Shown piece by piece: positions 3,956 through 4,766 of a DNA stretch of 9,640 nt. Position 1 is the first letter of the stretch. Each line of letters begins with the position of its first letter. This stretch comes from Flavobacteriales bacterium UBA5869. GTDB taxonomy: Bacteria > Bacteroidota > Bacteroidia > Flavobacteriales_D > Crocinitomicaceae. Below the pieces are notes generated by a model. The model had not been told where the DNA came from. It was given only the letters and a program-made list of their open reading frames with translations, and searched no databases. The stretch spans positions 12,866 to 22,505 of the forward strand of contig DJFP01000202.1 in assembly GCA_002432565.1 (NCBI GenBank), in the 5' to 3' direction. A program made the translations under genes and the position numbers.

Positions 3956-4411
3956 ATGAAGCAATCGACAATTAATCTATTATTATTTTTCACACTACTG
4001 CTTTTTGTATCCTGTTCAACAAACACCAAAAAAGTTGAAACCAAGGCGGGACAAAAGAAAATGTCCGTCATTGGAAGATGGGTGTTAATCAAATCGGAAG
4101 ATTCCGGATTCCGCAAGACAGATCATCAAAATCAACCTTCTGACGTAGTTTTGAACATTCAAAAAAATGGGTTTTTTATCGTTTATGATACCCTTGTAGA
4201 TTCGAAATGGCGAAAAAAAGGCCTTCCACTGATACAGGAAAGAACTTCCGGACAATGGAAACTTGAAGACTCGCTTTTAACAATGATCCACGATGACAAA
4301 GACACTTCATTCACGGAAGACTTCAAAATTGTACGTTGTGATGGAGATGAATTGGTAACAGAGCGTTCGAATAAGAAAACTACCGTCTACAGAACCTACG
4401 GTAAGAAATAG
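3956..4411 (+). CDS. Small lipocalin-like lipoprotein, function unknown
   Basis: A 151-residue protein with a lipoprotein signal: basic start MKQSTIN, hydrophobic core LLLFFTLLLF, then VSC with the lipidated cysteine at residue 20. The residue at -3 is Phe rather than the usual Leu, a tolerable deviation from the lipobox. The mature part is polar and rich in Lys and Asp. It has the pattern of the small beta-barrel 'lipocalin-like' proteins common in Bacteroidota: a GRWVLIKSED strand near residue 40, SGQWKLEDSLLTMI near residue 100, and a C-terminal strand ending VYRTYG. No catalytic motif is visible. It is separated from the EEP gene by 49 AT-rich bases and followed by a strong terminator, so it may be transcribed alone or as an operon tail. 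Lipoprotein status is fairly secure; the lipocalin-like fold is a weaker call, and no role can be assigned. Confidence 0.75.
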   Translation: MKQSTINLLLFFTLLLFVSCSTNTKKVETKAGQKKMSVIGRWVLIKSEDSGFRKTDHQNQPSDVVLNIQKNGFFIVYDTLVDSKWRKKGLPLIQERTSGQWKLEDSLLTMIHDDKDTSFTEDFKIVRCDGDELVTERSNKKTTVYRTYGKK

Positions 4412-4731
4412 AAAAAAGTAGGGCTGGAAAATTTTCCAGCCCTACTTTTTGAATTCTACATTTTGATTTTTGCATTAAAAACCCATACAGCGTCCGTCAA
4501 ACGACGGAAAATTCTGAACGCCTCAGAAAGCACGATTTGGTTCGCTGTTTTTCTTTGTAATCTGCCGATCGCGTCATGCGAAACCCGAAGGTTGCAGCCC
4601 GCCATTAAAAAACTAAGACTCCCCATTCGTAGTAAAAAAATGTTAGACGTCAACAATCTCACTGCATGGGTTTATCTCCCGCACGTGCGGAAGAATGTTA
4701 TTTACACCCCGTCATCTGACGGGCGAATAAC
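4412..4731 (-). ncRNA. Candidate structured non-coding RNA, about 320 nt, unassigned family
   Basis: No protein family is recognisable here, but the minus strand shows an ordered set of helices. From the predicted 5' end: hairpin A (4731-4697), with stems GTTATT/AATAAC and CCCGTC/GACGGG; hairpin B (4694-4675), 8 bp with an ACGT loop; then helix P1 pairing 4673-4662 with 4490-4479 (12 bp, one G-U). Inside P1 are a 7-bp hairpin with a cUUCGg tetraloop (4596-4577), a 6-bp hairpin (4528-4512) and a 6-bp hairpin (4508-4493). A further 6-bp pairing, CGCGAU with AUCGUG, is possible. Wobbles in P1 and hairpin B pair only on the minus strand and would be A-C mismatches on the plus strand; the UUCG loop likewise favours the minus strand. 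A promoter lies just upstream and a terminator at the 3' end. I see no RNase P, tmRNA or SRP RNA signature. A 6S-like role cannot be excluded, though the multi-branched layout does not fit well. A palindromic mobile element is the main alternative. Confidence 0.6.
4413..4450. terminator. Perfect 38-bp palindrome acting as a bidirectional terminator
   Basis: Two 19-base arms, 4413-4431 and 4432-4450, are exact reverse complements. The practical stem is GTAGGGCTGGAA paired with its complement around an AATT loop, flanked by an A-tract on the left and a T-tract on the right. On the + strand the hairpin ends in TTTTT and starts two bases after the lipoprotein stop. On the - strand it ends in TTTTTT (4417-4412), where the predicted non-coding RNA would finish. 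It therefore fits intrinsic termination in both directions. Confidence 0.9.
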
Positions 4732-4735
4732 AATT

Positions 4736-4766
4736 TAAAGATACAAATTCTGCTCCCACAATCAAA
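4736..4766 (-). promoter_or_regulatory. Bacteroidota-type promoter for the candidate non-coding RNA
   Basis: Read on the minus strand, TTTG (4766-4763), a 19-base spacer, and TATCTTTA (4743-4736) match the Bacteroidota sigma-ABfr consensus TTTG-N19-21-TAnnTTTG at all but one base. Five bases past the second box is G at 4731, which is also the first base of the 5' hairpin. The agreement between predicted start site and structure boundary supports both calls. Confidence 0.55.

Follow-up and report, generated by a model that had tools for sequence, protein, structure and literature searches.

We hold it very probable that the RNA described here, encoded on the minus strand of a 9,640-nucleotide stretch of DNA (the window) from Flavobacteriales bacterium UBA5869 of the Crocinitomicaceae (GenBank assembly GCA_002432565.1, contig DJFP01000202.1), is a Bacteroidota homologue of 6S RNA, predicted to bind the housekeeping holoenzyme as a mimic of an open promoter and likely to be transcribed with a two-hairpin 5' domain. 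Polymerase binding, pRNA synthesis, growth-phase control and transcription itself we infer from the 6S class. New here are an unrecognised Crocinitomicaceae branch of that class, the P1-P2 architecture common to the Rfam families RF01693 and RF01685, and a conserved 5' module. All positions are those of the window.

The locus and its promoter

On one side of the RNA lie mutL, two rhomboid genes, a gene of the endonuclease/exonuclease/phosphatase family and a lipocalin-like gene; on the other are a proC-type gene, a DEAD-box helicase, a thioesterase and a carbamoyltransferase. The lipocalin-like gene (3956-4411, plus strand, its Pfam match just under cut-off) is the next gene beyond the 3' end of the RNA, and the two converge. 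No minus-strand gene follows the RNA in the window, which bears out the earlier view that a cis-acting leader is unlikely. In favour of such a leader, a riboswitch or an L20-type leader of a gene further along, there is a match to the Rfam family RF00558 (L20_leader) at 27.1 bits over 4561-4406. The cut-off of that family is 58.7 bits, the E value of the match is 0.056, and there is no minus-strand gene in the window for it to lead; we find this reading barely credible.

The promoter is of the Bacteroidota type (4736-4766, minus strand), with TTTG at 4766-4763, a 19-nt spacer and TATCTTTA at 4743-4736, a position from which transcription is expected to start near 4731. The Bacteroidota consensus, of the TTTG and -7 box type, differs from that of sigma-70, so it came as no surprise that a sigma-70 promoter scan found none. 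The strand from 4732 to 4474 (259 nt) folds at -89.8 kcal/mol (z -4.21), and none of 200 shuffles did as well.

The elements named in the original prediction are all present on the sequence: the promoter, two 5' hairpins, a 12-bp closing helix around 171 nt, a hairpin capped by cUUCGg (4592-4583, minus strand) and a T-tailed palindrome. Its central idea of a structured, free-standing RNA gene also stands, on the strength of the fold, of covarying pairs and of a -7 box kept at most loci of the family. A coding reading fares badly. The 68-aa minus-strand frame is not kept across nine Fluviicola loci. There the longest stop-free run of a locus measures between 41 and 95 aa and is not always in the same frame; the pairs, in contrast, covary.

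Probable assignment to the 6S class

The RNA had been called unassigned, after RNase P, tmRNA, SRP RNA and riboswitches had been set aside. A search for tRNA and tmRNA found neither; what was missing from the list was 6S RNA. In the Rfam search, positions 4618-4522 match RF01693 (Bacteroidales-1, described in Rfam as '6S-Bacteroidales RNA suggested') at 46.2 bits, E 3.2e-5, over model positions 55-149 of 179, which is below the curated cut-off of 60 bits. The next-best match to this family in the whole 4.09-Mb genome has an E value of 0.35. Every other Rfam line, sR18 among them, was below its cut-off and was put aside. Neither RF00013 (6S, cut-off 46.4 bits) nor RF01685 (6S-Flavo, cut-off 85 bits) has a match in this genome, and RF01685 matches none of 100 Crocinitomicaceae genomes. 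It is silent in its control genomes too, yet matches 21 of 295 genomes of the class, two of them over cut-off; RF01693 matches nine of 296 genomes of the phylum, again with two over cut-off.

The sub-threshold match gains weight from covariance models working in the other direction. One, R1, was built from 13 Crocinitomicaceae sequences with the structure read off their alignment; another, R2, from the 67 Crocinitomicaceae sequences that R1 found. R1 matches the two Bacteroidales-1 loci that are over the Rfam cut-off (L040 at 60.0 bits, L039 at 51.7) and the over-cut-off 6S-Flavo locus L043 (33.7 bits), each from end to end over model positions 1-185 and each at the place where Rfam finds it. 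It also scores L042 at 34.9 and L041 at 31.2 bits, with low scores for L046 (15.1), L045 (12.6) and L044 (7.2). L041 is telling: RF01685 (49.3 bits) and RF01693 (41.1 bits), both under cut-off, match it at the same place, which argues that Bacteroidales-1 and 6S-Flavo are one class. R2 finds 20 of 22 loci outside the Crocinitomicaceae, missing L256 and L259; Rfam families had brought in 15 of these (R2 finds 13) and R1 itself the other seven. A degenerate pattern of the core, run over a collection of named genomes, gave at least 119 stretches. The 80 that were listed are, by their titles, all from Bacteroidota, and R2 matches every one, 77 at full length and three cut by the end of the locus. 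Taken with the double match at L041, the end-to-end matches of R1 and R2 to both Rfam families mark the minus-strand RNA, as judged from its sequence, as a divergent Bacteroidota 6S RNA and no new RNA class.

A covarying rod with a central bubble

The core of the RNA is a rod of about 200 nt, made of a closing stem, a central bubble and an apical stem, which we met in 67 family and 20 non-family sequences. The closing stem P1, helix 1 of our 67-sequence family alignment A3, runs from AAACCCAUGCAGUG (4660-4673, minus strand, as are all elements of the rod) to CGCUGUAUGGGUUU (4479-4492). It is 12 bp long, pairing 4673-4662 with 4490-4479 around an interior of 171 nt, or 14 bp (4673-4660 with 4492-4479) if a U-G and G-C extension is counted. 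Beside it sits an extra hairpin of Fluviicola type (4493-4508; alignment rows L009-L015), missing or replaced in other rows. In A3, both sides of the pair have changed at 10 of the 14 positions of P1, which is 90.8% paired.

Inside P1 comes P2 (helix 2), a duplex of the downstream type. Its 5' strand, UUGACGUCU (4645-4653), together with the adjoining 5' bubble is the predicted template for pRNA; its 3' strand, AGGCGUUCAG (4514-4523, with one bulged base), takes the place of GAGUUU in Bacteroidales-1 and 6S-Flavo, where the two strands read AAACUC/GAGUUU. The P2 strands are UUGACGUC/GGCGUUCAG in Fluviicola and UUGAAGCUU/AAGCUUCAG in the other genera. All nine pairs show change on both sides, with 93.7% pairing. 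Above P2 the central bubble opens, with AACAUUUUUUUACUACGAAU on its 5' side (4625-4644, unpaired in the covarying structure) and CCAAAUCGUGCUUUCUG on its 3' side (4524-4540), the first two bases of which pair with 4624-4623. Within the 3' strand a U (column 219) and a G (column 229) are invariant in 67 of 67 sequences; its CAAAUC.UGU also occurs in Bacteroidales-1, and 6S-Flavo has a similar AAAC.UGUU. An alternative helix in the bubble, GAACG/CGUUC, proved to be confined to the Fluviicola-type rows of another alignment, A1, and was dropped. The apical stem (4547-4613; helices 4-6 of A3) lies within the stretch matched by RF01693, 4618-4522. It consists of P3 (GUUUUUU/GAAAAAC), an internal loop (GCGGG/AUUA), P4 (CUGC/GCAG) and variable apical hairpins, including the one with UUCG.

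Across the 67 family sequences, 91.4% of the cells of A3 are paired and 32 of 38 pairs show change on both sides (7-16 in slid versions of the structure), with a covariation score of 0.444 against 0.046-0.105 for the slid versions. In the 20 non-family sequences, which were fitted to the model so that their alignment leans toward its structure, 34 of 37 pairs show change on both sides, where slid versions give 13-25, and pairing stands at 88.9% of the cells, where slid versions give 36-44%. In Rfam, the structure lines shown for RF01693 and for RF01685 cover the apical part only, which makes P1 and P2 additions to both.

Two other readings of the RNA meet their evidence here. The original prediction favoured a trans-acting RNA, and the locus does look like a free-standing gene with its own promoter and end. 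In the form of a small RNA that works by base-pairing, this is opposed by a long-range covarying rod, by a single locus in most genomes and by the matches to 6S families; base-pairing sRNAs do not usually keep such structure over a class, and we think this reading very improbable. The RNA might instead descend from 6S RNA and have turned into something else, for example an RNA that binds core polymerase and has no pRNA cycle, like Ms1 of actinobacteria, which is called structurally related to 6S RNA (PMC9130861). Strong divergence from RF01685 and a 5' domain not seen outside the family would fit such a history. A bubble and a P2 as well kept as those described above would not, nor would the covariation of an alternative hairpin to which we now turn, and we regard an Ms1-like fate as improbable.

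An alternative hairpin and a proposed model for release

The long-range helix P2 competes with a local hairpin, UUUCUGA.GGCG.UUCAGAA (4529-4512, minus strand), formed from the 3' side of the central bubble and the 3' strand of P2. This matters for the interior hairpins of the original prediction, some of which represent one of two alternative folds; the rival, P2, covaries. The seven pairs of the alternative hairpin are 85.9% paired across the family, and 34 cells show change on both sides, compared with 9.6 in shuffles and 2-23 in slid versions. The count of pairs changed on both sides (six) was reached by 55 of 500 shuffles, and some of the hairpin's covariation may be borrowed from P2, with which it has bases in common.

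In an energy model, the 3' strand of P2 has a mean local pairing of 0.22, which rises to 0.49 once the putative template is blocked; the hairpin reaches at least 0.5 in 42 of 67 family members when the template is blocked and in seven of 67 when it is free, and P2 reaches 0.5 in 35 of 67 in the free state. For the window's own sequence in the free state, the model already prefers the local hairpin (0.47) over P2 (0.14).

In a published account of 6S RNA (PMC8876501), the apical arm holds a region like a -35 element and the 3' central bubble one like a -10 element; synthesis of pRNA starts in the 5' bubble and proceeds into P2 along its 5' strand, and that helix opens. In E. coli-type 6S RNA, according to the same source (PMC8876501), a 9-bp hairpin in the 3' bubble forms once P2 opens. 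If the cycle is the same in Crocinitomicaceae, the RNA would stay bound by polymerase during stationary phase. When nutrients return, the enzyme would use the RNA as template, beginning in the 5' central bubble at about 4640-4644 and running through the 5' strand of P2 to 4653, and synthesis of this short pRNA would open P2. The freed 3' strand would then snap into the hairpin at 4529-4512 and the polymerase would be released, as in E. coli-type 6S RNA. For the two 5' hairpins our guess is that they would shield the 5' end or provide a further contact.

An extra 5' domain

Between the promoter and the rod the window has two hairpins. Hairpin A (4697-4731, minus strand) has an outer stem, GUUAUU/AAUAAC, an asymmetric internal loop on the 3' side and an inner stem, CCCGUC/GACGGG. 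Hairpin B (4676-4695, minus strand) directly precedes P1.

The layout recurs throughout the family. We counted promoters and hairpin B at 66 of the 67 loci, having dropped L107 for its short upstream sequence. At 48 of the 66, the end of a -7 box lies 44-66 nt ahead of P1, and in 22 of these 48 a -33 TTTG (at least three of four letters, 18-21 nt spacing) goes with it. The lowest-energy fold of the stretch from promoter to P1 has two hairpins and no others at 62 of 66 loci; the window's row, two bases short, gives three hairpins, and its full strand gives two. For the named genomes we used 77 of the 80 listed loci, leaving out the three cut by locus ends, with one more too short to count. Of the 68 usable loci listed outside the family, 51 have a box no more than 30 nt from P1 and five have one at 44-66 nt; among the eight listed loci of family type (R2 at least 130 bits), it is at 44-66 nt in seven and within 30 nt in none.

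The hairpins themselves also hold up. Hairpin B, of at least 3 bp, is present in 66 of 66 usable loci with 46 distinct pairs of arms, at a mean score of 12.39 against 7.54 in shuffles (the highest shuffle mean was 8.39). Hairpin A had to be aligned in two sets. In the nine Fluviicola rows of alignment A6, eight of 12 pairs have changed on both sides and 90.4% of the cells are paired (slid 28-61%); cells changed on both sides number 20, compared with 6.8 in shuffles, and further pair types, at 11 against 12.8, are not above the shuffled level. In the other genera (alignment A5, which contains two out-of-place matches of the model R3 introduced below, L102 and L076), eight of nine pairs have changed on both sides, with 90.5% pairing (slid 31-46%) and 72 changed cells to 17.8 in shuffles. 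The pair count of eight was reached by 95 of 500 shuffles; the cell count and the score were not reached.

R3, a covariance model of hairpin A, has in-place matches at 29 of the 67 family loci, 21 of which supplied its training rows. It matches none of nine Fluviicola loci and none of 22 loci outside the family. As it misses Fluviicola as well, little can be read into the lack of matches outside the family, and promoter position is the stronger sign that the 5' domain is special to the Crocinitomicaceae. Homology of the domain between Fluviicola and the remaining genera rests on the family-wide layout and not on sequence.

Two covarying hairpins between promoter and P1 are new for this class and are likely part of the transcript. 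Whether they stay on the mature RNA is where readings of a 6S RNA diverge. Precursors of 6S RNA are trimmed in E. coli, and the 5' domain might likewise be a short-lived leader. Both hairpins covary, though, and from genus to genus the spacing of promoter and P1 is maintained, which seems more than a leader soon to be discarded would call for; we give trimming appreciable weight without favouring it. As a tentative suggestion, which we rather doubt, this would be a 6S RNA of two modules, the 5' one remaining in place as a second handle on the polymerase-bound RNA, which a protein partner might use, for instance, or through which release might be controlled. No conserved add-on at the 5' end of a 6S RNA is known to us, and our search of the open-licence literature found nothing on a 5' extension of 6S RNA. 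Additional hairpins are mentioned in other sRNAs (PMC5320573).

The 3' end

The end of the RNA had been placed at the palindrome, and we doubt it. A T-run (4477-4481, minus strand), its last three bases within P1, marks the end of the closing stem and is likely the conserved 3' end: of 67 family members, 66 have at least four consecutive T, and 51 at least six, within the 10 nt downstream of the GGG of P1. The palindrome (4413-4450), a bidirectional terminator-like element with a T tract between the RNA and the convergent lipocalin-like gene, is symmetric and so carries no strand information. A long palindrome some 30 nt after P1 is found at two of nine Fluviicola loci. Copies of the window's palindrome, AAAAAGTAGGGCTGGAAAATTTTCCAGCCCTACTTTTT, exact or nearly so, also lie at five other sites in the genome (contigs C234, C44, C180, C82 and C219 of G000) and in other Fluviicola genomes; the palindrome is a dispersed Fluviicola repeat, of the bidirectional terminator type or REP-like. 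With the T-run kept at nearly every locus and the palindrome rare and dispersed, the transcript likely ends near 4477 rather than 4413 and measures about 255 nt.

Distribution in the Crocinitomicaceae and beyond

A DNA search of 100 Crocinitomicaceae genomes recovered the RNA in all nine genomes of the sample that belong to Fluviicola, the genus of the window's host, and gave partial matches in nine further genomes, two of which (G067 and G079) match only in the part after P1. R1 finds it in 67 of the 100, each time once and at full length, a count that includes its 13 training genomes. R2 extends this to 84 genomes and 21 of 24 genera. Eighty of these have a single match, two (G056 and G090) have in addition an echo on the opposite strand at the same place, and two (G001 and G054) have a second locus. 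Neither model is a general one for 6S RNA: within the class, R1 matches 12 and R2 42 of 295 genomes.

The genomes with a second locus belong to genus g2. The paired loci are G054:C2:161087-161257 with 163203-163371 and G001:C1:244147-244317 with 242031-242204, about 2 kb apart, the second one weaker in each case (56 and 38 bits). The second locus in each is possibly a second 6S RNA.

R2 has no match in 16 of the 100 genomes, among them all seven of genus g22 (G022, G040, G053, G065, G076, G084 and G092). The listed completeness of all seven is 99-100%. The reading we suggest is that in this genus the 6S RNA has been lost or has diverged strongly.

A gene for zapA is the classical and frequent, if not defining, neighbour of 6S RNA. 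In the present draft genome zapA is on contig C27 and the RNA on C12, so the two are not near each other. Elsewhere this neighbourhood can be seen: in L041 (1181-3148) the 6S-type RNA sits between zapA and an RNase Y gene, and in L043 (1-1991) zapA is on one side and an ORF that looks by eye like RNase Y on the other. We found no strict -7 box in the 300 nt upstream of the RNA in L041-L044, which suggests co-transcription with zapA followed by processing.

Comparison with known 6S RNAs

For 6S RNA in this phylum there are published reports. One paper describes a 6S RNA of B. thetaiotaomicron with two classes of pRNA from dRNA-seq (PMC7366714), and another lists 6S RNA among the RNAs detected in Flavobacterium psychrophilum (PMC9723704). 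The B. thetaiotaomicron RNA is likely of RF01693 type, by elimination: of RF01693, RF00013 and RF01685, only the first has a match above its cut-off in a control Bacteroides genome. That RNA was detected experimentally, whereas the window's RNA is a prediction from sequence. In the open-licence literature we found no paper on 6S RNA in the Crocinitomicaceae or on noncoding RNA in Fluviicola. The gap has a simple outline. RF01685 matches none of the 100 Crocinitomicaceae genomes though 84 carry a 6S-type RNA, and the best RF01693 score in the window's genome falls short of that family's cut-off. Filling the gap makes promoter mimicry and release testable with the unusual promoter type of the Bacteroidota, and it suggests that a 6S RNA can carry an additional, conserved domain at its 5' end.

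With E. coli-type 6S RNA (RF00013), the window's RNA would share a release hairpin built from the 3' central bubble and the 3' strand of P2 (PMC8876501). It differs in that its genome has no RF00013 match and its pRNA is a prediction. The likeness to RF01693 is closer. Bacteroidales-1 has the same plan of closing stem, P2, bubble and apical stem, the same core of AUGGCGGGC...GAUUACA and the same CAAAUC.UGU bubble strand, whereas the window's RNA scores below the family's cut-off and matches part of its model. The promoters differ as well: at the listed loci outside the family the -7 box is mostly within 30 nt of P1 (51 of 68), and in the Crocinitomicaceae mostly 44-66 nt away (48 of 66). With RF01685 the window's RNA shares the plan, by both R1 and R2, and has at the place of its P2 the counterpart of ACUCAAC / GGAGUUU in 6S-Flavo. 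The core loop sequence is different, none of the 100 family genomes is matched, and the RF01685-matching gene of L041 lies between zapA and the RNase Y gene, unlike the window's RNA. To judge from these sequences, RF01693 and RF01685 appear to be one class, which could be merged with P1 and P2 added.
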